The notes beneath the pieces were generated by a model. It saw nothing but the letters and a program-made list of their open reading frames with translations. It was not told where the DNA came from and searched no databases. Positions 2,094 to 17,383 of a DNA stretch of 17,383 nucleotides are shown here, one piece after another. Position 1 is the first letter of the stretch, and each line of letters begins with the position of its first letter. The DNA is from Phycisphaerales bacterium (lineage in GTDB: Bacteria; Planctomycetota; Phycisphaerae; Sedimentisphaerales; Anaerohalosphaeraceae), in assembly GCA_011053245.1 (NCBI GenBank), contig DRGS01000096.1, positions 1 through 17,383 of the forward strand, given 5' to 3'. The position numbers and the translations under genes were made by a program.

Positions 2094-2918
2094 TCATTGC
2101 GTCCATGGCCCGGGGTGAACAGATGGAGAGAACCATTCTATACCCCAAAAAGATATTGTCAGGATCACGATTCCCAGAACCGCCAGCCATGCCGCCCGTT
2201 TCATTTTCCAGCCGAGGAAAGAGCGGGCATGGAGATAGAACGCGTAAAAGAGAAATGCGATCAGTGACCATGTTTCCAGCGGATCCCAGCTCCAATAATG
2301 TCCCCAGAGCTTTTTGCCCCAGATGGCACCGGATATGAGCATGACGGCGTGGTTAATAAAACCAAGGACGATGAAACGATAGTTCGAAACATCCAACGCT
2401 TCGCAAGGCGGTATATTCAGTTGCGGCCTTTTAATGAGCAGCTTATCTCGTAACAAGAACATCATTGCCGCACCTGTCGATATCGCATAGCAGCCGAAAG
2501 CGAACCATGCGAAAATGACATGGACGATAAGCCACGGGCTTTGAAAAGCAGGCCCCATCGGAACTACTTCAATTCGTGACATCATACCGTGGCCGAGACC
2601 CAGAAAGACTATCGGCGTAACGATGAGGGCTATTACCCGATCGATTTTTTTCAATCTCTCAAATATCAGGAACACGAGCATAGTAAACCACATCCCGGTA
2701 AGGTTAAACTCATAAGCATCTGTTACCGGTGGATGAGCGGCGTCTATCCATCTTGCTATACCCGTAGCGGTATGCAGGAAAAACGCAAGCCAGAGAATCT
2801 TAAAAGCCAGATCGATCTTCTCATCCTTTCCCCTCACCAAAGAAAAAAGATGCCGGGAAAAAGCCAATACATACATAAAAGTCGTGAGCCAGAAAAGTAT
2901 CTCTTCGATTTTCGCCAT
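2094..2918 (-). CDS. ccsA: CcsA/ResC-type cytochrome c heme lyase subunit
   Basis: This integral membrane protein delivers heme and helps ligate it to apocytochrome c in System II (Ccs/Res) maturation. The 274 residues contain about eight membrane segments and the diagnostic tryptophan-rich WWD loop at about 205-215 (WGHYWSWDPLETW). The family's histidines are visible: H133 (LIVHV) and H230 (YLHAR) flank the WWD side, and H190 (INHAVML) lies in a membrane segment. By family knowledge these hold heme at the external site and inside the membrane. The gene begins 12 bases after the resB stop, with AAGGTGAT seven bases before ATG, so the two are clearly cotranscribed. It is slightly shorter than many CcsA proteins (300 or more residues), but no key element is missing. 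Confidence 0.93.
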   Translation of the reverse strand: MAKIEEILFWLTTFMYVLAFSRHLFSLVRGKDEKIDLAFKILWLAFFLHTATGIARWIDAAHPPVTDAYEFNLTGMWFTMLVFLIFERLKKIDRVIALIVTPIVFLGLGHGMMSRIEVVPMGPAFQSPWLIVHVIFAWFAFGCYAISTGAAMMFLLRDKLLIKRPQLNIPPCEALDVSNYRFIVLGFINHAVMLISGAIWGKKLWGHYWSWDPLETWSLIAFLFYAFYLHARSFLGWKMKRAAWLAVLGIVILTISFWGIEWFSPSVHPGPWTQ

Positions 2919-2930
2919 GTTTAGATCACC

Positions 2931-4088
2931 TTAAAATTTATCCGCATTAGCGGACCATTTTCGCATGTCGGGAACATACCGCAACAACAAAGCTCCGAGA
3001 CCGAGCCAGAGAGAGATGCACACCGTCAAATAGCCCGGATCATCTACGACCTGAAACGAGGCCCATCGCCTTAGATCGGCAAACTTAAAAACATGATCTC
3101 CAATAGGAACCTCTTGGCCGGGAGTTAAATATTCTTTCGATACTATTTTGCCATCCTGATCTTCAACTACAATACGAATAAGCGGATTCTTTGGTTCTTC
3201 GGATGTTTTTACCGCTTGGCCGTCTTTCATTACATGATCCGGGTATACTGTGACGATCGTTCTGTTCTTCAAAAAATCAAGGGGCAGAAAATCTCTGTAC
3301 TCTTTACCATTATCACCATCGTAAGTTTTGAGCATCACGAAAGAATAAAACAAAATCCTGCCGGTATTTTTGTCTCTTATTTCGATCCGGGGAGAAAAGC
3401 CTATCTCCTTATGCGTAAACGCAAAGGACTTATATGTAAAGGGGCGGTTGACTTTAACGGTTGCCTCTTTGACTTTTTGGCCTTGCTCAAGAACATCTAA
3501 TCTTGAAGTTACATCCGTCTGGTAAAAGGCTTTCTGATACTCTGTCGTTATTTCGTTGAGCTTCAGTGCGAAATTCTTATGAGACTTCTTTCTTAGCGGT
3601 CCTTCGGCTATTCTTAGATAGCCGGCATGAGTTTCGGAAAAAGTCTGCCCTTCGGTCAGGATTATATGTCCGTTTAATTTCAGTGCGGTGGTTATAAACC
3701 CCCCGACTATAAGCATGACAAGACTGATGTGCAGTAGAAAGAAGCCGCCCTTTTCTATTCGTTTAGGGCCAGCGAGGCAGGCAAATCCGCCATCTCTTAC
3801 AAATCGCAGGGCGGTGCAGGTTAAGGTATTTATCCCCAACACTATGAGAGTTATCATAAACGGCCAGGAAGTAAAAACATGGAACAAACCGATCTGTTTT
3901 GCGACAGGTGTTATGAGGGCGTGATCCCGCTGCCAGAGAAGGATATCATCAGGGTTGACACGATCAATCTGGGGGAGCACAGTGCCCGCAAAAGAAAAGA
4001 TCATCAGGACAAGAACGATTGCCAGCGCCAGTTTCCCGGAACTGGTGACCCTTAGTAAAGCCGTTAATGATTTAGATACAAGCGACAT
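2931..4088 (-). CDS. resB: ResB-type cytochrome c biogenesis protein
   Basis: ResB (CcsB) pairs with CcsA as the System II heme lyase that attaches heme to CXXCH motifs outside the cytoplasmic membrane. The 385-residue protein has the family layout: TM1 at about 19-40 (GKLALAI...FAGTVLPQ), TM2 at about 75-95, TM3 at about 114-134 with the conserved histidine H120 (FLLHISLVML), a large external domain at about 140-350, and a final TM at about 353-370. The ATG lies 88 bases downstream of the giant cytochrome gene. Only a poor Shine-Dalgarno sequence is visible, and a perfect TATAAT box sits in the gap, so its own promoter is possible. No thioredoxin-like ResA or CcdA is in the window, so the cysteine-reducing part must be encoded elsewhere. 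Confidence 0.92.
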   Translation of the reverse strand: MSLVSKSLTALLRVTSSGKLALAIVLVLMIFSFAGTVLPQIDRVNPDDILLWQRDHALITPVAKQIGLFHVFTSWPFMITLIVLGINTLTCTALRFVRDGGFACLAGPKRIEKGGFFLLHISLVMLIVGGFITTALKLNGHIILTEGQTFSETHAGYLRIAEGPLRKKSHKNFALKLNEITTEYQKAFYQTDVTSRLDVLEQGQKVKEATVKVNRPFTYKSFAFTHKEIGFSPRIEIRDKNTGRILFYSFVMLKTYDGDNGKEYRDFLPLDFLKNRTIVTVYPDHVMKDGQAVKTSEEPKNPLIRIVVEDQDGKIVSKEYLTPGQEVPIGDHVFKFADLRRWASFQVVDDPGYLTVCISLWLGLGALLLRYVPDMRKWSANADKF

Positions 4089-4176: not shown

Positions 4177-7100
4177 TTATGGCGTTCGTACAGGATAGCT
4201 CTTCGAGCCATTTGTATGGTTGCAGTTGCCGCCCCAGCAATCTACGCTTCCACCGGACGGCAGCCATCCGCTATTCCAGCCGCCTACAACAAAGATGTCG
4301 GTAATCACAAATTCACTATTAGAACCCGAAGGCCAGGTGTAGCTGCCGCCATGGATACTACCGGCTGCGGCGCCGTTATCCAAGCCAGAATCTTTATCGT
4401 CATCTATGAAACCTGCATGACAGCCAAAACAAGCCATATCATTACTATTCAAGTGACCATTCTGAGCGGGAGCGTGGTATTGGAAGCCGCTTCCATCTGT
4501 ATCCGAGGCGGAGCCGGTGGCATATACGGTTGTATTATGGCATAACACGCAGAAGTCCTTTATCTGTGTGTTGATACCAGCGGTATAACCGCCTCTTCCT
4601 GATCCGGCTTCAGAGATCATAGTATCGAAGTCAATGGGACTGCGCAGCATTCTTTGGTTATTGCTGCCATGTGTATTTGTAGTATGACAATCGAAGCATG
4701 ATATTACATCGTGCCCATCTGAGTTCGGACCTCCGGTAGTGTCCTGATTCCATGGCGGATCCATCATAGTATTATATCCGCTATGGGGTATAGTAAACGG
4801 GTTACTTCCAGGTCCCCTGACCGCATGATGATAGGTATTGGAAGCAGTATCGAACTTGCCATATACTTCAGGGACGGTTGCTCCTGTTGAGAATGGCGTC
4901 ATTGCGTTTGCACCGAGATAAGCTGCTCCGCCTAAACCCGGTCCTCTGGATGCATCGGAATCATGACACTTAAAGCAGAACTGGTCCTGAACAACAGTCG
5001 TCCATTCTTCTAATACATCAGAGTTTGTATTCCGGTCAAGAACGCTAAATGAATAATCGGAGCCTTGATATTGGATCTGATTGCCGGTATCGGGGTCACG
5101 CAAGTCAATCATTTTAGGTGAAGAATGCAGCGTGGGCGGATTTTCCATGTGGCAGACTTCACAGTCGGCTTGGACGGGGGTACCGTTTGAAACGTGATGA
5201 CTTGTCATGGCAAAGTCTGCGACGACATCACGCCTTGTGCCCTGAACCTGGTCGTGACAGCCGGAACCGAGACAATCGCCTCCAACAACAACCGCTCCGA
5301 AACCACCATCGTGCGGATGGCATGCAACACACGGTTGACCGACATAATCACCTCTTTCAGCAGGATGTGCGGCGTCGAGACCTGTGTTCGTGTGATGGTC
5401 CGTTGTTGTATGACAAGTCTGGCAGATACCGTTAAAGGGCGTGCTGGTAAACCCCCAGAAATCATCTGGATTCTCCGGTGCGCCATGATAAAGAACCGGT
5501 TCCAGTGCGGTGGGGTAGAGATCAGGCTTATTGATATCCCATCGAATCCAACTGACATTCGGAGCGGTTATTCCGCTGGCATGGGTATCTGTGGTATTAA
5601 AATCATAGTAGTTGTGCATTTCATGGCAGTAGCCGCAGTCCATCATACCGCCACTTGTATCATGCAAAGCGAAATCCAATTTGGCAGAAGCATCACCATC
5701 CGGGTTATGGCAGGTTACACATCTTGCTTCCTGTGCGGCGCCTGCCGGCATAAAACCACCACCTCCTCCGTGAGTACTGTGACATTCCACGCAATCGGCA
5801 CCATACATTGCGTTATGGCCAAAAGGCAGAACACTTGTAAGCTGTGAATATGTAGCCGGAGTTGTCAGCCGGTAATTTATGAGCGACTCTGCCCCTTCAC
5901 CGTTATAGGCATATACCGCAATGTGATATGTGGTGTCGTCCGTCAGGCCGGAAAGGCCGAAAATAGTACCCACACCTTTGTAAACGACATAATTGCCTGT
6001 TCCGATCTGATCGCCGCTTCCAAATACCGGGAAATCATTGTATTCGATGCCGTCAACAGGATCGGCATCAACAGGGGAACCTTCTTTGGCCAATACAATA
6101 CTGTAAGGCGTTTCGCCTTTGGTCCAATTGAAAGATATATACTTAAATGTGACTCTCGATGTGCCGATATTGGTTGGCGATGTTGCCGGCTCGGTATAGA
6201 ATGATGCCTGCGTCGAATAACTTGTTCCGAAAGAGTTCGTGGCATAACCGCGGAAATATATCCGTGAACCGGACGCAAGCCCTGTTCGGCCGTGTGTAAA
6301 ATCTCCTAACTGCCCTGAAGCGGTCTGTACATTTACCAGATCGTCAACTATGTTCGGCATACCCGTCGTGTTCCAGACCGTACCGCGAGCCGTCAGGGTA
6401 TCGCCGCCGTTATTGGTTACGTCGGCACCGAGTGTAGCGGTGGTTGCAAGGACATTGCTGAACGTAGGCAAGATAACGGTCGGATAACCGACGATCAACC
6501 GGCTGTTGGTTGGTGGACTTTCTTCGCGATAGTTGACTCCGCTGGCCCCTGCGCCGGAACCTTTGTACTCATAAACCGCCACATGGTATGTATGGCCGGC
6601 GATCAAGTCCGTGATATTTACATAATTGTTCACAGTATCCCGGTAGGCAACAAAGTTACCGCTGCCAAGGTCGGTACCTGCGCCGTAGCTGGGATTGGCC
6701 AGAGGTTCGACACCATCGGTCGGGGTAGCGCTGACAGCGGAATCCTGCCTGATAACTACCATTGCACCGTCACCATTGCCGCGGACCCAGTTAACACGCA
6801 TGCTCGATTCTGTTATGTTGTCAAGAGTAATGGTTGAAGCTTGGGTCGGTTCGGTATAAAAAGTTCCATCGGAAGAATATGCTGTCCCGTCGCCATTTGT
6901 TCCGTAACCGCGGAAGTAGATCAGCGACCCGGGATCAAGACCGGCGGCAGAATCGTTAAATGAACCCGGTACCGCGCCGCTGTATGTGCCCAGCGTAGTC
7001 GGATGTTCATCTATAGGAGGCCCCGTTGTGTTCCACATCGTACCGTGCTGAAAGATAGTTCCGCCGCCATCGCTGAATATCGTTATCTGGAGATCGGCGG

Positions 7101-8268
7101 TCGTCGTCTGCACATTGGAAGAGCTGACAGTCGTAAGAGCCGGAGGGCCGATTATCAACTGGTTCGCCGTAGCGGGACTGGTCTGGATATAGTTGATACC
7201 CGTCTGACCCGTACCGGAGCCGCCGTAAGCATATACCGCAACATAGTATGTCGAACCGGGGCTGAGATTCGTCACAGTTACGTTGCTTGCCGTACCGATA
7301 TAGACTACGCGGTTGCCTGTGCCTATCTCGTCGCCATTGGGATAAATGCTGTCATCTGAGTAAAGCGTTCCATCTATCGGATCGGCGTCGACTGCGCCGT
7401 TTTCCTGTATCAGCACGATCACACCGTCACCGGTATGGGTGTTCGACCAGTTTATCCGCATATCGGATGCGCCTGCGTTATCTATAAAAGCGGTCGGTTC
7501 CTGCGTGTCCGGCTCGGTGCGGAACGAGTCTTCCGTGGAAAGGGCCGTTCCCGTAGAATTAGTTGCGTAACCTGCAAAGTAGATGATCGTTTTAGGAGGC
7601 AAATCTGTTCGCAAGTGAAAGAACTGGCCCAGTCCGCTGCCCTGGCTGGCGGGATTATCTGTTTCCGCTACGGGCGATGATGTTTTCCAGACCGTACCGC
7701 GGTCGGAAACCGGAGGGTCGCCGCCATCGCCTGTGACATCCGCTCCGAGTGTTGCACTGGTTCCGCCGATACCGCTGGCTCCAAGATTGATTATTGTTGG
7801 CGGTGCCACGCTTAAATTTCCCGTTCCCTGAATACTGAAGGTATATGGGTTTCTCGTATCGTCAGAGTTATTGGCAATGCTTACGCTCGCACTGCGGATG
7901 CCTGCTCCTGCCGGCGTAAATCGAATCGTAAATGTTGTCGTCAAATTCTTTCCAACAGGCGAAATTGGATTTACCGTTACGTTAAATTCGCCAGAGTGCG
8001 TTCCCGTGATAACAGGATTTGACAGAGTAAGGTTGCCGGATTGAGATCCGGTATTTGTGATCGTATATGTTCTGTCAAATGTGTTTCCGATATCGACAAC
8101 GAGGAAATCGGTATGATTCGATGAACTTGGCGATGTCGCGCCGTCACTGATCGGTTGACCATTACCTGTCATGGCCATATTCGGGGGTTTCGGTGCGGCG
8201 ATTGCAGTTGCGGATAAGCAAACGACGACGATCAAAGCTATAAGAATGTAATTGTTTCTATTTAACAT
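4177..8268 (-). CDS. Giant secreted multiheme cytochrome with Ig/FN3-like modules
   Basis: The 1363-residue protein starts with a Sec signal peptide (residues 1-25, hydrophobic core then TAIAA). Residues ~30-155 resemble a choice-of-anchor-D (ASH-like) Ig domain. Three tandem modules follow at about 156-374, 375-592 and 593-812. Each pairs a domain with a GTVWNTTG / YFRGYATN pattern and a fibronectin-like domain ending in TYHVAVY and NY. The C-terminal ~540 residues carry ten CXXCH motifs (first C826, last near C1280), one CX4CH (C999-H1005) and an odd CX4CNH near the end. CX4CH-CXXCH domains are known from Geobacter cytochromes. A surface-exposed electron-transfer and binding protein is inferred. 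An upstream ATG at 8328 would place 20 extra residues before the signal peptide and overlap the preceding gene. ATG 8268 lies 22 bases after that gene's stop, with AAGGAAG somewhat far upstream. No C-terminal sorting signal is seen. Confidence 0.9.
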   Translation of the reverse strand: MLNRNNYILIALIVVVCLSATAIAAPKPPNMAMTGNGQPISDGATSPSSSNHTDFLVVDIGNTFDRTYTITNTGSQSGNLTLSNPVITGTHSGEFNVTVNPISPVGKNLTTTFTIRFTPAGAGIRSASVSIANNSDDTRNPYTFSIQGTGNLSVAPPTIINLGASGIGGTSATLGADVTGDGGDPPVSDRGTVWKTSSPVAETDNPASQGSGLGQFFHLRTDLPPKTIIYFAGYATNSTGTALSTEDSFRTEPDTQEPTAFIDNAGASDMRINWSNTHTGDGVIVLIQENGAVDADPIDGTLYSDDSIYPNGDEIGTGNRVVYIGTASNVTVTNLSPGSTYYVAVYAYGGSGTGQTGINYIQTSPATANQLIIGPPALTTVSSSNVQTTTADLQITIFSDGGGTIFQHGTMWNTTGPPIDEHPTTLGTYSGAVPGSFNDSAAGLDPGSLIYFRGYGTNGDGTAYSSDGTFYTEPTQASTITLDNITESSMRVNWVRGNGDGAMVVIRQDSAVSATPTDGVEPLANPSYGAGTDLGSGNFVAYRDTVNNYVNITDLIAGHTYHVAVYEYKGSGAGASGVNYREESPPTNSRLIVGYPTVILPTFSNVLATTATLGADVTNNGGDTLTARGTVWNTTGMPNIVDDLVNVQTASGQLGDFTHGRTGLASGSRIYFRGYATNSFGTSYSTQASFYTEPATSPTNIGTSRVTFKYISFNWTKGETPYSIVLAKEGSPVDADPVDGIEYNDFPVFGSGDQIGTGNYVVYKGVGTIFGLSGLTDDTTYHIAVYAYNGEGAESLINYRLTTPATYSQLTSVLPFGHNAMYGADCVECHSTHGGGGGFMPAGAAQEARCVTCHNPDGDASAKLDFALHDTSGGMMDCGYCHEMHNYYDFNTTDTHASGITAPNVSWIRWDINKPDLYPTALEPVLYHGAPENPDDFWGFTSTPFNGICQTCHTTTDHHTNTGLDAAHPAERGDYVGQPCVACHPHDGGFGAVVVGGDCLGSGCHDQVQGTRRDVVADFAMTSHHVSNGTPVQADCEVCHMENPPTLHSSPKMIDLRDPDTGNQIQYQGSDYSFSVLDRNTNSDVLEEWTTVVQDQFCFKCHDSDASRGPGLGGAAYLGANAMTPFSTGATVPEVYGKFDTASNTYHHAVRGPGSNPFTIPHSGYNTMMDPPWNQDTTGGPNSDGHDVISCFDCHTTNTHGSNNQRMLRSPIDFDTMISEAGSGRGGYTAGINTQIKDFCVLCHNTTVYATGSASDTDGSGFQYHAPAQNGHLNSNDMACFGCHAGFIDDDKDSGLDNGAAAGSIHGGSYTWPSGSNSEFVITDIFVVGGWNSGWLPSGGSVDCWGGNCNHTNGSKSYPVRTP

Positions 8269-8290
8269 AAAATCGAATATACTTCCTTTA

Positions 8291-9514
8291 TCAAGGGACC
8301 AATATGATCTCAACTCGTTTGTTTCCATAATTCGCTACGGCAAGACGGCCGTTACTGTCAAATGCTATGTCCAGCGGCACTCTGAGTTGACCCGTGTCGA
8401 ACCCCTCTTCACCGTAAGAAACTATATGCGCCCTGGTTACCGGGTTGAATATCTGAATGTTATTCAGGTAGCAATCGGCTACATGAAGGCGTCCGAGGTT
8501 ATCCATAGCAATACTCTGAAGCCGGATGAATTTGCCGTCGGCACCGCCGAAAATTAGCTTACGGCCGATCGAACGCAAGTAGTTACCCTCAAGATCAAAT
8601 ACCTTTATCATGAAGTTCTTCTGGTCAGCGATATAAAGCTCGGTGGTGATATTACCTAAACCGTCATCGACGTCCGCTATCGTAATAGTTGTAGGAAAGT
8701 GCAGCTTGCCGTCGCTGATAAGACGAAGGCGATTGCCGTTCGGATCAAAGACTATAACCGTATTGGAAAGGCTATCGACTACATACACATTGCCCGCCGC
8801 ATCGAGTGCGATAGAGTTGGGCATCTGAATGACGTCATCACCAAAGGTATAAAGCAATTCACCATTGGAGTCATAGACTTCGATATTATCATTACCATCA
8901 CTGCCGACGTAAATATTACCGTCAGGACCAATTGCGATCCCCAGCGGTTTGTTGATATCCTTGATCTCAGCTACGGCGGTTATGATGGCCGGTTCGTTGG
9001 GATCAACGGTATCGGCAGCTTCATAGATAAAGATCGAACCTACCTTGTGGTCGCATACATAGAGCCTGCCATCCGGCCCCCATGTAAGACGTGAGGGGTA
9101 TTCGTTTTGATGCTTTACCGCCAACGGATCCTCGGGCAAGACAGGAGGTTCGTTTGGTTCTGGCGGTGGCGGTGGTGGTGGAGCATAACATTCGAGATAG
9201 TCTATTATAAAATCAATTAGTTCGTCTGATGCTTTGGATTTGTCATCTTGATCCTCGACCCAAAGGCACCAGTCGATCACATGCCAGCCAACGCCGAAAC
9301 GTTTAATGCTGAAAAGCTGCAGGTCCTCGACATCTATTTTGCCGTCACGGTTGAGGTCCCCATCGGAAGCGGCATAAACAGTGGTTGGCTGCATCGGTAA
9401 GGGAACCTTATCGCCCAAGGGAAGCATGCGAAGCAACACCGCAGCGCAGGCTATTGTCAGGGCCGTACTTAGCATGGCCCTTTTTTTCAACATATTTGAG
9501 TTCTTTGAACTCAT
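8291..9514 (-). CDS. Secreted NHL beta-propeller with N-terminal dockerin-like domain
   Basis: A signal sequence spans roughly residues 1-48. It is followed by a dockerin-type calcium loop at D53-D64 (DLNRDGKIDVED), a degenerate second half (about 80-109) containing a Cys pair (DWC...LEC), and a Pro-rich linker at 112-124. From about 130 to 407 the protein is an NHL propeller with repeated patterns such as IAIGPDGNIYVGSD, IALDAAGNVYVVDS and IAMDNLGRLHVADC. Propellers of this kind act as binding scaffolds; no catalytic residues are evident. The start is supported by AAGGGAAG about five bases before ATG. It lies 22 bases upstream of the giant cytochrome gene, so both are probably made together and may bind each other. 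Dockerins usually sit at the C terminus, so an N-terminal one is uncommon. Confidence 0.88.
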   Translation of the reverse strand: MSSKNSNMLKKRAMLSTALTIACAAVLLRMLPLGDKVPLPMQPTTVYAASDGDLNRDGKIDVEDLQLFSIKRFGVGWHVIDWCLWVEDQDDKSKASDELIDFIIDYLECYAPPPPPPPEPNEPPVLPEDPLAVKHQNEYPSRLTWGPDGRLYVCDHKVGSIFIYEAADTVDPNEPAIITAVAEIKDINKPLGIAIGPDGNIYVGSDGNDNIEVYDSNGELLYTFGDDVIQMPNSIALDAAGNVYVVDSLSNTVIVFDPNGNRLRLISDGKLHFPTTITIADVDDGLGNITTELYIADQKNFMIKVFDLEGNYLRSIGRKLIFGGADGKFIRLQSIAMDNLGRLHVADCYLNNIQIFNPVTRAHIVSYGEEGFDTGQLRVPLDIAFDSNGRLAVANYGNKRVEIILVP

Positions 9515-9942: not shown

Positions 9943-10788
9943 TTACCTGTCATGACACTGAAGACAGATGCGGCCGCGATCGAGAGTTTCATTTGTGCGG
10001 GACTTGTTTTGAGCATAAAGGGTGTGGCAGCTACCGCAGCCGACTTTCCCTTTGAAGAGCCGTACCCGACCAGGATTGGCCCTTGGATAGAAAAAAGTAC
10101 CCGGTGCTTTCTGCAAGGCGAAACTGCGATAGTCCACTCCGACAGGATGGTCGGTCATTGTCGCCCAGCGGGCCCTCTTTCGAGATTCTGATTCGTGCAG
10201 CGCAGGGATAGTCACCTTTACATCTGTGTGACAGCTAAGGCAGGTATGGGTTTCCTTGTCCAATGGACCAAGAAACTGAACCGGCTTTTCAGAAGTATTG
10301 GAGTTTGGATTGATCGTTTCCAGATGAGCACGATTTGAAAATTGCCAGTGTGACATCTCCATAGTAGACCCTGACATTGACGTATGGCATTGCCCGCAAA
10401 AATTGTTGTCGCTGTCCTGAAGAGTTTGCAGCAGCCTTTCATTTGTACCACCGCTTGATGTCGTTGATTCATGGCATGTCAGGCAGGTGATCCGCTGATC
10501 ATCGTCAAGAGGCATGTTTTCGGGAACATTACCCTGGCCGCTTATGTCAACAGCGTGATTTAAGATAGGGTCGTAATCGTGACAACCCGCGGTAGCACAG
10601 AGACCGCTTATATCCGACTTCAGGTTGCCCGCACCCGATCCCGTCTGATGGCAGCTTTCACATGACAAATTAAAATGATGAAGTGGAATGGTTTTGTTTG
10701 ATCCGAAAGCGTTGCTTGCGGGGGTTGTCATAAAAATAAGAATGGCAAATATTGCGAGAAGCATTTTGTTGGTCTTACGCGACAGCAA
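9943..10788 (-). CDS. Secreted cytochrome with 6 CXXCH and 1 CX4CH motifs; start uncertain
   Basis: The protein has six canonical heme motifs (CESCH, CLTCH, CGQCH, CLSCH, CGSCH, CLQCH) and one CX4CH (CATAGCH) between the first two, so up to seven c-type hemes. The last motif ends the protein. The reading frame contains a good signal peptide (basic RKTNK, hydrophobic MLLAIFAILIF, then a probable cleavage after SNA). The start is problematic. The coordinates use the in-frame TTG at 10788, which has no ribosome site. In-frame ATGs at 10875 and 10896 give an overlong N-terminal region. The only good ribosome site serves an ATG at 10805 that is out of frame by one base. It is probably periplasmic or surface-exposed, and its partner is unknown. 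Confidence 0.82.
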   Translation of the reverse strand: MLSRKTNKMLLAIFAILIFMTTPASNAFGSNKTIPLHHFNLSCESCHQTGSGAGNLKSDISGLCATAGCHDYDPILNHAVDISGQGNVPENMPLDDDQRITCLTCHESTTSSGGTNERLLQTLQDSDNNFCGQCHTSMSGSTMEMSHWQFSNRAHLETINPNSNTSEKPVQFLGPLDKETHTCLSCHTDVKVTIPALHESESRKRARWATMTDHPVGVDYRSFALQKAPGTFFYPRANPGRVRLFKGKVGCGSCHTLYAQNKSRTNETLDRGRICLQCHDR

Positions 10789-10802
10789 AATTGCTTTGAA
10801 TG

Positions 10803-10821
10803 CATTTAAAATAGTCCTCCT
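10803..10821 (-). promoter_or_regulatory. Strong ribosome site with out-of-frame ATG
   Basis: On the minus strand AGGAGG (10821-10816) is followed ten bases later by ATG (10805-10803). This ATG reads MHSKQFCC and reaches a TGA after about 25 codons. It is one base out of frame with the cytochrome. One more T in the T4 run at 10790-10787 would join it to the signal peptide. Confidence 0.55.
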
Positions 10822-11060
10822 GCATAGATCAAAGCAACTCGGTACCAAAACCAGTTTTCTCGGCCCCTCAGCCATAACGACTACCCCCATAGGCATATAT
10901 GCATCTATTATGTCTACTGCTTTTTACGCTGGCTGACAGATGCAGTTCAATCTATCAACACTTAAAACATAAGAAATAATTCGGGGACATCCAACTTGCA
11001 AAATGAGGTAGCAGAAGATATGTGCTAACGTCCGAAAAAGACGGGTATGCTGAATATTGA

Positions 11061-11105: not shown

Positions 11106-12755
11106 TCAGTAACTTTCCGTGTTATGTTCACGTTCATGGCAAAACAGCGAGCACTCACCGCGAAATACACCCTGATCGACAAATTCAAGACGGCTGTTTG
11201 TTGTAGAGGGCAGAACAATGCTTGTGTCGAAGTTTATAAGATGACTGTTATTTTGTTCATTGCCCTGGGCATTTGATATACCATGCGGATCATGGCAGGC
11301 TGAACATGGTGTTTCTTCTTCGATATGTTTACTATGCTGTGGGAAACTTTCGTTATTTAGAATGCTGTTTCGGCTATGGCATTGATAGCACAGTTGATAA
11401 CTTGATTCGCTTTCTTGTGTGAAATCGCGGGTCTCATATCGATAGGCAAGCAGATAAGGATAGTTAGAGCCGTGCGGTCCTTTTGTTCCTGAACCGTCGG
11501 AACCATGGCAGTCGGTACAATATATCATAGTGGCAGTCGTAAGTTGAGCGTTCAAACTTGGTACATTCTGATTTTTGCCGCTGGTAACTACCGGATGAAA
11601 CGACGGAGCCGACGGGTCGAATTCAAGCCTTGTATCACTTTGTGTGATCTGTCTGGATATAGTCGGCTGCACCCTGTCAACATTACTGCCGTGACACTTA
11701 AAGCATACTTCATATTGATATTTTACATCTCTTGTTATCGAACCTGATTCGGTTATGCCGGAGACCTTTTCCATGACCCCTGATGCTGCTGGAACCTCCG
11801 CAAAGGTTTTTGTGGCGGCATGCGGATTATGACAGTCGACGCATTCGACATGCTTCTCGGCTTCAATTGGCAACTCTTTTAAGTCATGGACACCCTTGTA
11901 ACGCACGACATCGTGTTTATACGGTTTTGCAAGATCAGTCAACAGGTTTGTTTTCGCTACTGTACCGTCGTGGCAGTTAAGGCAATTGTCTTCGGAGTTC
12001 TTAAAATGAAGCAGCCGCTCGGGGCCTCCCGCAGAATGGGGACGGTGGCATGAAAGGCAGCCGTTCTCAGCTACGGTATGGTATTGAGTTTGCTTAAGAT
12101 ATGTATCCGTTGTGTTTGAAACAGCAACGTTTGAACTTTCATGGCTTGACCCGGACCACCCCTCAAGGTCATGGCAGGTTATGCACATCGCCGAACGCTC
12201 ATTTGACATAACCAGAAAGTTGCCATTAGTATTATCATGCGAGTCATGGCACGTCGTACATTGAAGTTCGCCAGAGTTGTCAAGTTTAAAGTGCGAGGGC
12301 AAAGCAGAGACCGCGCGTATTTGCGGATCCTTACCGGAAAGACCAGGCGAGTAAATAAAACTTATGGGGTGGTCGTCCGAAAGATCCGTACCAAGATTGG
12401 CAGCACCGGGCCGTATCCGCGTACCTGCCGACGAGGGCTTACCTCTTCTGACCTGGCCAAGTGCAACGGTTCCATCATGACAACTAAGACACAGCTTGCT
12501 CGAACCGGTCGGCTGACCGACTTTGGCATCAAGCGAAGAACTGCTATATATTTTATAGACCGCGGTCGAAAGTTTGTGGTTCCAGACGGGCGTGTTCCGT
12601 AATGCACCATGCGGAGTGTGACAGAAACTACATGTACTCTTGGCTCCTTTGGCGCGAAGATCATGCGGAGTACCCTTAATACCAGCGGCATAGACAACCA
12701 CAGGCAAAACCATCAAAATGAGTACAAAAGCCAGGATCTTAAAACGACAAATCAT
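11106..12755 (-). CDS. Secreted doubled-CXXCH cytochrome (11 CXXCH plus 1 CX3CH)
   Basis: A signal peptide (residues 1-23, cleavage after VYA) precedes a domain typical of doubled-CXXCH cytochromes: CSFCHTPHG, then PVWNHKLS, then LCLSCHDGTVALG. Eleven CXXCH motifs are spread along the 549 residues, several followed by a histidine two residues later (CHTPH, CHRPH, CHNPH, CHDPH) that may serve as an axial ligand. Near the C terminus CSLFCH (C535-H540) has one extra residue between the cysteines. The ATG follows GGAGGT by five bases and overlaps the stop of the preceding propeller gene as ATGA, which suggests translational coupling. It is expected outside the cytoplasmic membrane, either as a periplasmic feeder or on the surface next to the barrel; the sequence does not decide which. 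Confidence 0.92.
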   Translation of the reverse strand: MICRFKILAFVLILMVLPVVVYAAGIKGTPHDLRAKGAKSTCSFCHTPHGALRNTPVWNHKLSTAVYKIYSSSSLDAKVGQPTGSSKLCLSCHDGTVALGQVRRGKPSSAGTRIRPGAANLGTDLSDDHPISFIYSPGLSGKDPQIRAVSALPSHFKLDNSGELQCTTCHDSHDNTNGNFLVMSNERSAMCITCHDLEGWSGSSHESSNVAVSNTTDTYLKQTQYHTVAENGCLSCHRPHSAGGPERLLHFKNSEDNCLNCHDGTVAKTNLLTDLAKPYKHDVVRYKGVHDLKELPIEAEKHVECVDCHNPHAATKTFAEVPAASGVMEKVSGITESGSITRDVKYQYEVCFKCHGSNVDRVQPTISRQITQSDTRLEFDPSAPSFHPVVTSGKNQNVPSLNAQLTTATMIYCTDCHGSDGSGTKGPHGSNYPYLLAYRYETRDFTQESESSYQLCYQCHSRNSILNNESFPQHSKHIEEETPCSACHDPHGISNAQGNEQNNSHLINFDTSIVLPSTTNSRLEFVDQGVFRGECSLFCHEREHNTESY

Positions 12756-13819
12756 GGCGTACCTCCATCAATCAATTCAAATATCTGTATTCTCTTGTTA
12801 AACGAATCGGCGACATACATCCTGTTCGCATCATCGATAAATATACCGCCGGGCAGCCAGAATTCGCCAAACCCGCCACCTTCGCCGCCGATAGCCATAA
12901 GAATCTGGCCATTAGAGTCGAAAATCTGAATATTTTCAAACTGCCGATCGACAACGTATATGTTACCATAATTATCGGTTGAAATGCCACTCGGATGAGC
13001 GAAATTCCCGGGCCGGTCGCCCTGATCGCCGAAACTCCTCAGAAAAGCCCCATGTTTCGTGAAAATCTGCACACGATAATTCAGAGTATCACTCACATAT
13101 ATATTGCCAGAGGTGTCAATCGATATATGCGTCGGGTAATTAAACTGAGCGTTTTCGACGCCCCTTGACCCTATCGTATCGATCTGCTTGCCGTCCTTTG
13201 TAAATATCTTTATAGTATGCGCAGGCGTATCGGTCACATAAAATCTTTCCGTCTCCGCCATATATGCTATAGATGTTGGCCGTTGAAGGGCATCGGCGCC
13301 AAAACAAAAGAGGAACTCGCCCTCAGTATCGAAAACGCACACCTTGTGAAGTATACTGTCAACGACATAGACTTTTCCATCGACCAGTTCCAGCGACACC
13401 GGGCTTATCAGCCTGTCGTCATTCGATATTCCAGAAAACTGGCGGTACTCCCGATTTGCGAGGTCGAACACATGAATATTCGACCCAGCCATATCCGCGA
13501 CAAACATCCTCTGGCGATCATCGACACAGACATCATACGGCCCTAACAATACGCCCGTGTCCTCCCTGCCAAAGAAAAACCTTAGAAACCCTTCCGCCCA
13601 GGGCACTTCCTTTTTCAGGTCTTCCTCAGTCGAAATAACACCTATAAACTTTATCCTTGGTTCTTCCGGTTCACCCGGCCAGACGATGGGCTCAGCCAGC
13701 GGTTCAAACAACTCACCTCTTTCACTCGTACACCCACCAAGCAAAGCCGACATACCAACCGCGCAGAGACACAATGACATATATAAAAAATGCGATTTAT
13801 GATCTTCAGTTTTTGACAT
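12752..13819 (-). CDS. NHL six-bladed beta-propeller lipoprotein
   Basis: A lipoprotein signal peptide ends in LGGC with the lipidated cysteine at C30 (next residue Thr, not Asp, so outer-membrane sorting is plausible). A linker rich in Pro and Glu (WPGEPEEPRIKF) leads into a propeller with repeated blades, for example DVCVDDRQRMFVADM, ISIDTSGNIYVSDT, ISTDNYGNIYVVDR and IFIDDANRMYVADS. The start has AGGAG five bases upstream. The gene is 17 bases after the barrel gene and overlaps the next cytochrome gene by 4 bases, so it is made in step with both. Related propeller lipoproteins occur in clusters for extracellular electron transfer; a scaffold role for the cytochrome is inferred. Confidence 0.9.
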   Translation of the reverse strand: MSKTEDHKSHFLYMSLCLCAVGMSALLGGCTSERGELFEPLAEPIVWPGEPEEPRIKFIGVISTEEDLKKEVPWAEGFLRFFFGREDTGVLLGPYDVCVDDRQRMFVADMAGSNIHVFDLANREYRQFSGISNDDRLISPVSLELVDGKVYVVDSILHKVCVFDTEGEFLFCFGADALQRPTSIAYMAETERFYVTDTPAHTIKIFTKDGKQIDTIGSRGVENAQFNYPTHISIDTSGNIYVSDTLNYRVQIFTKHGAFLRSFGDQGDRPGNFAHPSGISTDNYGNIYVVDRQFENIQIFDSNGQILMAIGGEGGGFGEFWLPGGIFIDDANRMYVADSFNKRIQIFELIDGGTP

Positions 13820-13836
13820 TGTAACTCCTACGATAT

Positions 13837-15918
13837 TTAAAAGGTCCGCCTGATCCTCATATACAAAAACAGCGTTTCAGTTTCACTGTTGCTTCGCGTC
13901 AGAAGACTGTACTCAAGACCTGTCAGGAATGAGAACTGCCTGTAATTATACCCTAATTCCGAATTAAACTCAATCCCCTCTGTATCGCCAAACAAGGTAT
14001 CCGTTTCGTTAACATAGTCTATATCAGCCGTCAGATGGTACTTGTCAGACAGCCGCCAGTAGAACTCACTGCCAAAATCGATCATCTCGGTCTCACGATC
14101 CTGGGATCCGCCCGTAGTCAGAACGCTCTTTGACCCCCATACGCTTACCGTCTTTGTATCATCGATATCCCAGTGATATTGTGCCCGAATATTCGTGCTT
14201 TCAGAGTTCTCTATCGTCGACTCAGTCTCTGTGTACTCTGCAGCCAGGGCAAAACCGCCCTTTATATAATCCGCGGTCAATGTATTGGTCCGGGTATTGT
14301 CAGCTACGACATCCGGATCTGACGAGGTTACATCTTCATTCTGCCGCCTGTGTTTTGCGTATATTGAAAGGCCGTTATTAAATTGATGGCCCAAAAGAAA
14401 CTGCTGATTAACGGTATCCTCGCTTCGCTTTGATTCGACAAAAAATGTATAGTCAACCTTGACGGTGTCACCGGCAGCAATATTATTACCGTTTATCCCC
14501 AGTGTTGAAAGCCGAAGCTTTGTTATTCCACCAGCACTCGGGATGATCGTATAGTCGTCTGGTGATGTTAAAAGATTATCTGCGATATCGGTAACGAAGA
14601 TGCTGGTCTCGTCAATATTTATCTGGCGGAGTTCGACTTCAAAAAAAGTAAAGCCGATCGGGATAGTATGCAGTTCGTCGTCGACTATACCGGAAGTGCC
14701 GCTGCCTGATTGTTCAAGAGAATTTAAGCTTACACTGTAGTTAGCAAAAATACTGCCCCATCTGTTCTTTTTATTATAGTTAAACGACAGATCGCCGCCT
14801 CTTTGTTCCTGCTGGTTCTTGCCCTGAAAGTCCAAATTGGCACCGTAAATATTGACATTGGTCACAAGGCTTTGGTACAACTTATGAGTAAGACCTGCCC
14901 GGTAACGGGTCTCATTGTCCTCAAGACCTTCGCGTGTTTTCTTCGTGGACAGAAAGGAATAATAAGTTCTTAATGCTTTGCTGTGCTGGATGGTCAGATC
15001 TTCGTTCCACCGCAGATTTTTGTTCAGCACCGGTATGGTCTGGTCGCGAAAACTGATCGATGAATTAAGCGACCCCTCTTGTCTTTCGCCTAATTGCCAG
15101 CTATGACTTAGATCATAACTGTCAGTGGCGGTGAAATTCTGTGAATTCAGGGTTGAACTTTCGCTCTCACGGCGATCAAATGTAAATTTCATCCGGGAAT
15201 ATTTGGTGAAATCATGTTTGACACCATACTTAAATGTCTTATTAGTTCTTGAAAAAGTATCGCCTGATAGTGAAGAAGCAGAAACAGGGCTCTGCTCCGT
15301 ACTGTGTTTATCGTACCTGAATGTCATCGGAAAGGACTCGTTTCTGATGATAAGGTTATAATATTCGGACTCGTCCGTAGCTCTCAGCGGGCCGTAGAAG
15401 TGCCTTGAGATCAGGTTCTCGGTCTTATTGAAAGAGTAAGAGAACGGATAATCTTTCTTTTGCAAAATGGTTCCGGACAAACTGTATTCATCTATAAAAC
15501 CGTTTGTCTTTTCCGAAAGATCGCCTGTACCGCCTCCTCTATCGTCTGAGTCCACCTGTTGCTGATTCAGGCCAAGACCGAGTGCGGCACTGTAGAGCAT
15601 AAGGTTGGGGTGGTAAAGGTCTCCGCTTGTCCAGAGATTTAATCTCTCTTCAAAAACCAGCGTTTCGCTTTTAGTTTCGACTCCGCTTCTGCTCGCATTT
15701 CTGTCAAACTCACCTATTAGCTCAACATCACCTTCTATACGGCCATGACGCAGCAGCGGTCTTTCCCTGCCGCCAATATTTACGCTACAGCCGGTAACAG
15801 TGAAAAGCATAATGACAAATGCGAAACAGCAAACGATCCGCTCGACACGCCCGTAAGAAAGCAGATGGTAAACCCTGCGTTTGCAGCCCAAGAGTCTCTT
15901 TGTTATCTCTGCCTTCAA
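13837..15918 (-). CDS. Outer-membrane beta-barrel, candidate porin of a porin-cytochrome conduit
   Basis: After a hydrophobic signal segment ending in TVTGC (a lipobox, C44) comes about 640 residues of alternating amphipathic strands with aromatic girdles and polar turns. The protein ends in LYMRIRRTF, the terminal-Phe signature recognised by the Bam machinery. A segment at about 430-520 (DETSIFVTDI, DDYTI, GDTVKVDYTF) resembles small beta domains inserted in some conduit barrels. No sequence link to MtrB/PioB can be claimed by eye. Its neighbour upstream is a lipoprotein cytochrome and downstream are a propeller and a large cytochrome, which argues for a heme-threaded pore rather than a nutrient channel. 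I chose TTG 15918, which overlaps the cytochrome stop as TTGA. An ATG at 15984 would lie inside the cytochrome's last heme region, lacks a ribosome site and would bury the signal. Confidence 0.82.
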   Translation of the reverse strand: MKAEITKRLLGCKRRVYHLLSYGRVERIVCCFAFVIMLFTVTGCSVNIGGRERPLLRHGRIEGDVELIGEFDRNASRSGVETKSETLVFEERLNLWTSGDLYHPNLMLYSAALGLGLNQQQVDSDDRGGGTGDLSEKTNGFIDEYSLSGTILQKKDYPFSYSFNKTENLISRHFYGPLRATDESEYYNLIIRNESFPMTFRYDKHSTEQSPVSASSLSGDTFSRTNKTFKYGVKHDFTKYSRMKFTFDRRESESSTLNSQNFTATDSYDLSHSWQLGERQEGSLNSSISFRDQTIPVLNKNLRWNEDLTIQHSKALRTYYSFLSTKKTREGLEDNETRYRAGLTHKLYQSLVTNVNIYGANLDFQGKNQQEQRGGDLSFNYNKKNRWGSIFANYSVSLNSLEQSGSGTSGIVDDELHTIPIGFTFFEVELRQINIDETSIFVTDIADNLLTSPDDYTIIPSAGGITKLRLSTLGINGNNIAAGDTVKVDYTFFVESKRSEDTVNQQFLLGHQFNNGLSIYAKHRRQNEDVTSSDPDVVADNTRTNTLTADYIKGGFALAAEYTETESTIENSESTNIRAQYHWDIDDTKTVSVWGSKSVLTTGGSQDRETEMIDFGSEFYWRLSDKYHLTADIDYVNETDTLFGDTEGIEFNSELGYNYRQFSFLTGLEYSLLTRSNSETETLFLYMRIRRTF

Positions 15919-16529
15919 TTGCTTTCCCGGCTCCTGCCTTGTCTTAACAGGTGCTTGTCCGTACTTGTATGACCATAATGACATGTAAAGCAGTTGGTAA
16001 ACTCCTGATGGCCCTCTATTAACTTAATCTGTAACGGGTTGTGACACTGAAAACAAAGTTCCGGAGCCGGCATCCTCAATATATGTTCGTTCGTACTCTT
16101 GTGCGGGTCATGACAGTAAAGGCACTCGCCTACCGCGACAGGACCGTGAACAGGTATGGATATCGAGGAGTAATCCTTATCCTCATGGCATTGAAAGCAC
16201 AACTGAGGAGGTTCGACAGGCATTGAAACCGAGCCTGAGTAACCTTGTTTACGCTCGCCATGGCAGGATATATCGCAGGTTTCATACGGTACATGGGTGT
16301 ACCACTTCGTCCTTTGCTGCTGCTTTTTTTGTGATGCGTCGTTAACTGCATTGGGGTCCGTTGCAAACCGCTGAGTTGATGCCAACTCACCTTCTTGTCC
16401 GGGCACCGGAACCCCGTCAAAAAAATACGCTAACATCTCATAATGCTCGACCTCGTCGCAGCCGGACATGAAAAAGAGCAGACAAGAGATGCCCGCAACC
16501 CATAAAATAGTTCGCTCGTTAAAAAACAC
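15915..16529 (-). CDS. Lipoprotein cytochrome c (4 CXXCH plus 1 CX3CH)
   Basis: A short lipoprotein signal ends in MSGC (C24; the next residue is Asp, then Glu). The segment YEMLAYFFDGVPVPG before the hemes is one I associate with cytochromes beside outer-membrane barrels in planctomycetes and other metal-cycling bacteria. The heme motifs are CDISCH (CX3CH), CFQCH, CLYCH, CFQCH and CFTCH, giving up to five hemes in about 110 residues. The start is GTG 16529 because AAAGG lies seven bases upstream and the resulting signal peptide is normal in length. In-frame ATG 16565 and TTG 16580 would add 12 or 17 residues. The gene overlaps the barrel start, and its small size suits a cytochrome held inside or beneath the barrel. 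An Asp after the lipid Cys is an inner-membrane retention signal in E. coli, but that rule may not hold here. Confidence 0.88.
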   Translation of the reverse strand: MFFNERTILWVAGISCLLFFMSGCDEVEHYEMLAYFFDGVPVPGQEGELASTQRFATDPNAVNDASQKKQQQRTKWYTHVPYETCDISCHGERKQGYSGSVSMPVEPPQLCFQCHEDKDYSSISIPVHGPVAVGECLYCHDPHKSTNEHILRMPAPELCFQCHNPLQIKLIEGHQEFTNCFTCHYGHTSTDKHLLRQGRSRESN

Positions 16530-16619
16530 ACATAAACCTTTCAAACTATCCGCTATGAATCCCATTACCTGTTGATTCAATGCGGGATCGATCCAAAGCG
16601 TTTAGCCTACAGGCAAAGC

Positions 16620-17383
16620 CTACTGCGGGAAGGTACCCAGAGCATATACGGATATTTTGTTTTTTCCAAACTGGTTAGCTATTAAAATAATGGCCTCGAT
16701 CTCGGCTCCGTCAACGGCGTAACTTCTAAAGTGCTCAATGTTATCATAATCGATTCTTATCCCTATAGGGAAATACAACGCACCGGCAGCACCATCATCT
16801 GGCAAACCGAAATACAATAGTAGCCTTTGCTCTTGATCATATATCTTGGCAACCCCTGTCGCGGCATCGACGATCCACATCCTGCCCTCTCTGTCGACAT
16901 CGATTCCTTTGGGACGAACAAAGTCATGTACGCCCGTAGTCGGCTTACCGAATTTAGACACAAAGATGCCGTCTTTGTCAAATATGGTTATCGAAGCGGT
17001 GATCTTGTCGGTAATGTAAATATTCTCATCTTCATCAACCGCCATTCCACCGATATATTTGAATTGGCCCGGTTCGCTACCCTTCTTACCAAACCGCAGT
17101 ATCTCAGAACCGTCACTTTTGTTAACGACCACAATCTGCATTTTGTTCATGTCAACGACGTACATCTTGTCGCCGCGTACAACAACATCCATTGGGTATA
17201 TCCCAAGATCACGCAGCATAATAGCGGTCATGGTATCTTCTCGGTTAAAAACAAAGACCGCCTTGGCTTTGGGGTCGGCGACATACTTATTTCCCTCTGC
17301 ATCGATAAAAATACCGAGGGGGTTTATTATCCGCCTATCTTCGGTAAGCAGTTTGTAGGTCTCATCGCTCGAATCCAGGACCA
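16620..17383 (-). CDS. NHL beta-propeller protein, N-terminal part beyond the window
   Basis: The frame is open to the window edge (about 254 codons visible), and the 50 codons before the first internal Met still fit the propeller pattern (NPLGIFIDAEGNKYVADP). Further blades read MAVDEDENIYITDK, GIDVDREGRMWIVDA and so on, with FGKKGSEPGQFKYIGG linking blades as in six-bladed NHL proteins. Any signal peptide or lipobox would lie outside the window. It ends 90 bases before the chosen start of the lipoprotein cytochrome and is probably in the same operon. It has the same role class as the two other propellers in the window, but its visible sequence is clearly diverged from them. Confidence 0.88.
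   Translation of the reverse strand, partial: VLDSSDETYKLLTEDRRIINPLGIFIDAEGNKYVADPKAKAVFVFNREDTMTAIMLRDLGIYPMDVVVRGDKMYVVDMNKMQIVVVNKSDGSEILRFGKKGSEPGQFKYIGGMAVDEDENIYITDKITASITIFDKDGIFVSKFGKPTTGVHDFVRPKGIDVDREGRMWIVDAATGVAKIYDQEQRLLLYFGLPDDGAAGALYFPIGIRIDYDNIEHFRSYAVDGAEIEAIILIANQFGKNKISVYALGTFPQ

Follow-up and report, generated by a model that had tools for sequence, protein, structure and literature searches.

Among the described systems, Uet and Oet are the closest to the gene cluster reported here. As presented in parts of PMC10734462, Uet (undecaheme electron transfer) of Tenderiales and Gallionella has a barrel (UetC), an undecaheme cytochrome (UetJ, tabulated with 11 and 12 motifs) and NHL proteins (UetHI), and its further parts are an extracellular tetraheme cytochrome (UetA), triheme cytochromes (UetDEG) and a peptidyl-prolyl isomerase (UetB). 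Oet (OetA, OetB and OetI), from syntrophic sulfate reducers, is described in the main text of PMC10553843 as a single cassette with a barrel, a lipoprotein cytochrome and nanowire-type cytochromes. Here we analyze a stretch of 17,383 nucleotides from a Phycisphaerales bacterium (contig DRGS01000096.1 of assembly GCA_011053245.1), referred to below as the window, whose minus strand carries from 17383 to 11106 the genes NHL1, LcytA, a barrel gene, NHL2 and CYT12, and we consider it likely that this cluster encodes a planctomycete variant of conduits like Uet and Oet, carrying electrons across the outer membrane and coupled to a cytochrome filament of the OmcE type. The cluster has the following features:

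16620..17383, minus strand: NHL1, a 6-bladed beta-propeller whose 5' end is cut by the window end (PF17170, E 4e-12; NHL, E 9e-6)
15915..16580, minus strand: LcytA, a 5-heme lipoprotein cytochrome c (PF09699 doubled-CXXCH domain, E 2e-20; lipobox MSGC)
13837..~15918, minus strand: outer-membrane beta-barrel with a C-terminal Phe (AlphaFold2 model; start codon uncertain)
15787..15789, minus strand: lipobox cysteine of the barrel (VTGC; aligned [STA]GC column in the profile A1)
14440..14694, minus strand: insertion of a small beta-domain between strands 17 and 18 of the barrel (secondary structure of the model)
12752..13819, minus strand: NHL2, a propeller lipoprotein with lipobox LGGC (NHL, E 7e-24)
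11106..12755, minus strand: CYT12, a 12-heme cytochrome c (11 CXXCH and 1 CXXXCH; PF09699; signal-like N-terminus)
12171..12749, minus strand: OmcE-like tetraheme domain, CYT12 residues 3-195 (profile A4 against 7tfs and 9yuq)

An earlier note, made from the letters of the window alone, had placed a terminal-Phe barrel between a small lipoprotein cytochrome and a 12-motif cytochrome with propellers on both sides, and the gene map bears this out. Of the two stop/start overlaps it had listed, the ATGA of NHL2 and CYT12 (12755-12752, 4 nt) is evident from the coordinates, and the TTGA of LcytA and the barrel (15918-15915) holds only if the in-frame TTG 15918 is the start codon, which the sequence permits and does not prove; the two other candidate starts of the barrel are ATG 15984 (from the listing of open reading frames, ORFs) and ATG ~15810 (as in P0001).

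With the Uet described in those parts of PMC10734462, the cluster shares an 11/12-motif doubled-CXXCH cytochrome, as judged by motif count and the PF09699 domain, and a barrel with NHL proteins (here NHL1 and NHL2). In addition, a UetA-like tetraheme gene is present upstream in 6 of the 11 relatives recovered by a scan of genome contigs. Uet being known here at second hand, the likeness is one of gene content and description rather than of UetC or UetJ sequence. Where Uet has the triheme UetDEG, the planctomycete cluster has a 5-heme lipoprotein instead, and the heme counts of the window cytochromes (5, 12, 6-7 and 10-11 motifs) include no triheme gene. Uet also has the isomerase UetB, whereas no peptidyl-prolyl isomerase (PF00639, PF00160) was found among the 10 window proteins scanned, and none of the matches to these models in the genomes of 6 relatives lay next to the cluster, all being on different contigs or a long way from it. 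Because these two Uet features were not found, the cluster was not filed as Uet. The likeness to Oet, drawn from its description and not from the OetI sequence, lies in the lipoprotein cytochrome beside the barrel (here LcytA, with MSGC); one Oet filament cytochrome is OmcS-like whereas the planctomycete filament-type cytochrome is OmcE-like, and the words 'NHL' and 'propeller' occur 0 times in the main text of PMC10553843, whereas the planctomycete cluster has NHL proteins. By analogy, we regard the cluster as the same kind of system as Uet and Oet, in a planctomycete variant that would work as they do. What sets this variant apart, judged by sequence, is that its barrel has no match to the MtrB/PioB models, that the subfamily of the window has a lipobox and that no isomerase was found nearby. 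The earlier suggestion of a distinct conduit type stands as such a variant but not with built-in NHL propellers as its distinguishing mark, since Uet, as presented in that source, has the same content.

The cluster can also be compared with more distant systems. MtrCAB/PioAB likewise combine a large barrel with cytochromes, and MtrB is the best fold match of the planctomycete barrel in VIA-align, but no MtrB_PioB model matched in 33 barrels of the planctomycete family, and the window cytochromes gave only sub-cutoff matches to decaheme models. As described in parts of PMC5566968, PCC3 of iron oxidisers is likewise a barrel with multiheme cytochromes, and differs in having much higher heme numbers in its cytochromes (medians 34 and 21) as well as an inner-membrane protein. 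NHL proteins are also reported in cytochrome clusters of D. ferrophilus (passages of PMC9769857), and a multiheme operon of SEEP-SRB includes a beta-propeller protein (passages of PMC12246660). Porin-cytochrome genes of Planctomycetota are already published, because sections of PMC10732223 score PCC, Omc and DFE-like genes in metagenome-assembled genomes (MAGs) of Planctomycetota, Phycisphaerae among them, and a section of PMC13264449 reports two Planctomycetota MAGs with such complexes. Among the titles and abstracts listed for literature naming Planctomycetota or such clusters, none described the present cluster, which does not prove that it is undescribed.

The planctomycete nature of the system was supported by the scan, as 10 of the 11 loci bear the titles Planctomycetota, Planctomycetes, Phycisphaerae, Phycisphaerales or Sedimentisphaerales, and the remaining one is titled 'uncultured bacterium'. 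The order barrel-NHL2-CYT12 was kept in 11/11 scan loci, a conservation of gene order beyond chance, and LcytA and NHL1 preceded the barrel in the 9/9 loci that reach upstream; in L011 the barrel is divided between two ORFs. Of the five genes, CYT12 shows the highest conservation (60-67% identity in 11/11 loci). An NHL2 homologue 51-57% identical follows the barrel in 10/11 loci and was found by hidden Markov model in L005 as well, and the NHL1 homologue is 45-53% identical in all nine loci reaching upstream, in L003 over only 64 residues (in the ORF map, some long NHL1 ORFs carry the wrong label LcytA). When we checked 298 sampled genomes from the class to which L003 belongs (its record is titled Phycisphaerales), the barrel (profile A1) was present in 77 and CYT12 (profile A4, E <= 1e-60) in 77, and the two genome sets were identical. 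In agreement with this, a draw of 392 genomes from the phylum, which overlaps partly with the class sample, gave the barrel in 20 (profile A3), CYT12 in 21 (A4, E <= 1e-40) and both in 19, the exceptions being G341 with a weak barrel match only and G371 and G581 with CYT12 only. Related genomes are not independent, and hence we give no probability for this co-occurrence.

The surroundings of the barrel were then read in 71 loci, namely the 11 scan loci, 3 of which fall within the class sample, and a single region per genome for 60 others of the 77, so that 14 of the 77 are outside the reading; many of the genomes carry more than one barrel match (two or three). Counts were made on stop-to-stop segments, and loci were taken to have room when they extended at least 3.3 kb downstream or at least 4 kb upstream of the barrel. 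CYT12 was downstream of the barrel on the same strand in 59 of the 63 loci with room, and an NHL gene in 58 of the 63, so that the propellers, regarded in the earlier note as built-in parts, are near-constant. The earlier note had also named, as a finding that would speak against its reading, homologues of the barrel occurring mainly without cytochrome neighbours, and this did not come about. In all 71 loci a segment with at least 3 heme motifs lies no more than 4 kb from the barrel, but the background is high, and a nearby multiheme gene alone is weak evidence because a segment with at least 3 motifs is likewise present in 4 of the 12 control windows, each 2 kb long and located 7.5-9.5 kb away from the barrel. 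The weight of the conservation argument rests on CYT12 and the genome sets. A grouping of multiheme cytochromes with an unrelated barrel by mere chance, which such control windows and the abundance of multiheme genes (PF09699 matches 25 in G002 and 18 in G003) might suggest, is scarcely credible and already contradicted by the identical genome sets and by the order conserved among barrels only ~25% identical. As a separate observation, the barrel homologue in L099, L100 and L101 adjoins an 8-heme cytochrome, and the CYT12 of these genomes is on another contig.

The link to nanowires, which is absent from the earlier note, comes from CYT12. Its residues 3-195 match 7tfs (E 8e-32, profile A4) with all four CXXCH aligned, and 7TFS is the OmcE filament according to part of the review PMC12954529. 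The same N-terminal domain matches 9yuq (E 1e-27, profile A4), and beyond it CYT12 has 8 further hemes; the tetraheme domain is therefore shared with the Geobacter OmcE filament but is fused in CYT12 to an 8-heme part. A lipobox was not seen in CYT12. After its first heme motif CYT12 has an HTPH stretch with almost no variation, which may correspond to the cross-subunit histidine of OmcS. In OmcS and OmcE, as described in part of PMC9473688, a histidine of the neighbouring subunit coordinates a heme. A free-standing OmcE-like tetraheme gene, which in L001 matches 7tfs as well (E 3e-10) and so shares the domain of the OmcE filament, lies upstream of NHL1 in the six scan loci mentioned above; L003 has none there, the contig ends too early upstream to show one in 4/11, and for the window its expected place is past the end (upstream of 17383). 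With a simple ORF caller, 55 of the 71 loci showed a separate OmcE-like tetraheme ORF, on one strand or the other, no more than 4 kb from the barrel.

Searches with CYT12 outside these genomes gave no match by tblastn against plasmids; in the protein search, the best 120 of 7995 matches were listed. The A4 scan of viral contigs found one locus (L102), in a 181-kb contig filed as viral (IMGVR_UViG_3300037560_000207), where a 196-residue tetraheme OmcE-like cytochrome (L102:7980-8570; 7tfs, E 2.7e-21) has small ORFs as neighbours, including a phage-type RNA ligase. This cytochrome may be a phage-borne nanowire subunit, or the contig may be misassigned.

The cluster might also be a conduit for another use, for example to take up electrons donated by Fe(II) or by a partner cell, or to reduce a soluble acceptor, with an OmcE-like domain that no longer forms filaments. 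Multiheme conduits are reversible. Moreover, part of the review PMC12575090 states that Tenderiales carry uetA-J for electron uptake. We regard this alternative as improbable, as it is opposed by the separate tetraheme ORFs close to the barrel in most loci and by the upstream continuation of L009, which contains, besides a cytochrome of 13-15 motifs, one of the NapC/NirT type (PF03264, E 1e-10) that suggests outward flow, at least in L009. Homologues of this NapC-type protein (E <= 1e-10) were found in 10/71 loci, a count into which heme-rich proteins can cross-match, and its presence in the L009 cluster suggests, for some relatives, a route that starts at the quinone pool.

Concerning the barrel, the AlphaFold2 model has 28 long strands (mean predicted local distance difference test score, pLDDT, 85.5), and thus predicts the membrane barrel proposed in the earlier note. 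Its top match in VIA-align is MtrB, spanning residues 19-607. The C-terminal Phe (F657) is invariant across 13 aligned A1 sequences including the window, and the lipobox [STA]GC forms a single column in 8/8 A1 sequences that have the N-terminus (window included); this column was used instead of a pattern-based count of 25/71, which contains false matches and misses. The barrel has zero Pfam matches at E 0.01, the MtrB/PioB models PF11854 and TIGR03509 gave no match at E <= 0.1 in 33 family members including the window, PF11854 was found in 0/6 genomes searched, and profile searches of barrel alignments against PDB gave no match in one case and only E >= 0.34 in another. Membership of the MtrB/PioB family by sequence was therefore rejected for lack of a match to PF11854 or TIGR03509, and the barrel is indeed not obviously MtrB-like at that level, as the earlier note had put it. 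A phage tail-tube model matches the window barrel weakly (E 0.007) at the inserted beta-domain and matches 24/33 family members (best E 8.5e-9; match position displayed for L095 only). We rejected a phage protein as its explanation and read it as the small inserted beta-domain. A broad protein search with the barrel, in which as in our other protein searches only ~8000 candidates sharing most words were scored, gave 19 matches, of which the 3 carrying an organism name are 2 from Planctomycetota and 1 from an Anaerolineaceae MAG; the search thus gave no bridge to UetC or OetI, and this last homologue (P0147) may reflect transfer or mis-binning.

That FimD/PapC ushers are among the Foldseek matches listed raised the question of whether the barrel is mainly an usher-like channel for export or assembly of OmcE-like subunits or propellers, with CYT12 as filament cap or assembly factor. 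The filament-type cytochrome genes within the cluster would fit such a role, and the lipoprotein propellers could be an assembly platform. Nevertheless, this alternative seems unlikely, since the top VIA match is MtrB over residues 19-607, a 12-heme cytochrome occurs in exactly the barrel genomes and a 5-heme cytochrome is just upstream in 40 of the 63 loci with room, and an usher would have no need of either cytochrome.

Several results weigh against a conduit coupled to a filament. The lead of MtrB in VIA-align is only ~2 Z units (Z 22.3 versus 20.2 for TonB-dependent receptors), and Foldseek alone puts the colicin receptor Cir 1st and MtrB 4th (the best 50 matches were listed in both rankings). 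The structure model of CYT12 had a mean pLDDT of 35.8 and was excluded from the fold search; the heme path is therefore not visible in it. In 4 of the 63 loci with downstream room there is no CYT12 near the barrel (L092, L099, L100 and L101), and in 5 there is no NHL gene there (L061, L094, L099, L100 and L101). Moreover, the upstream half is variable, with LcytA in 40, NHL in 36 and both in 35 of the 63 loci with upstream room.

LcytA contains 4 CXXCH and 1 CXXXCH and an FFDGVP motif, and a 56-residue segment matches 6r2q_A (E 6e-8); this chain is listed as cystathionine beta-synthase, whereas entry 6r2q is titled Mtr complex, and we take chain A to be MtrA. A lipobox was present in NHL1 of the 6 relatives inspected.

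For the heme path, topology, assembly and direction of flow of the conduit we infer the following scheme. Electrons from periplasmic cytochromes would reach LcytA and the 8-heme C-terminal part of CYT12, both of which would sit inside or under the large barrel, and LcytA may pass electrons on at the periplasmic side, a role with which its 56-residue match to 6r2q_A agrees. The OmcE-like N-terminal domain of CYT12 would be at the cell surface, where the tetraheme OmcE-like subunits would polymerise outside by adding to it, and the NHL lipoproteins would be a scaffold on the outer membrane. A more specific idea, which we hold only tentatively, is that the nanowire has a hard-wired base in CYT12, whose OmcE-type filament subunit is fused to an octaheme wire lying within a 28-strand lipidated barrel. 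If this were true, the polymerising OmcE-like subunits would extend an unbroken heme chain from the periplasm, and conduit and nanowire would be one machine.

Beyond CYT12, the same strand of the window carries CYT6, a dockerin-like NHL protein, a 1383-residue multiheme protein and ResB/CcsB, and the possible accessory features are the following:

9943..10896, minus strand: CYT6, a 6-7-heme cytochrome c, possible accessory (PF09699, E 2e-11)
2094..4088, minus strand: ResB and CcsB, system II cytochrome c biogenesis, possible accessory (PF05140, E 1e-32; PF01578, E 1.5e-37)

A CYT6 homologue (E <= 1e-10) was detected in 8/71 barrel loci. The NHL propeller (8291-9514, minus strand) starts with a dockerin-like EF-hand, and the 1383-residue protein (4177-8328, minus strand) contains choice-of-anchor D, FN3 and MtrC/MtrF-like heme domains with 10 CXXCH and 1 longer motif; a homologue of the latter at E <= 1e-10 is absent from the ORFs of the 71 barrel loci. 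With regard to cytochrome biogenesis, system II is near the window cluster, and system I (CcmE, CcmF) is directly after CYT12 in L004 (L004:6993-9368).

For Geobacter, the main text of PMC10553843 describes electron transfer between cytochrome filaments and the inside of the cell as not well understood. CYT12, by uniting an OmcE-like domain with eight further hemes, is a direct candidate for this joint between filament and cell, and this kind of conduit occurs in about a quarter of the sampled genomes of one planctomycete class. Taken together, the cluster, found in many planctomycetes, appears to encode a wire across the outer membrane that is made of a large barrel together with heme proteins and two propellers, and this wire probably hooks onto an OmcE-type protein nanowire outside the cell.

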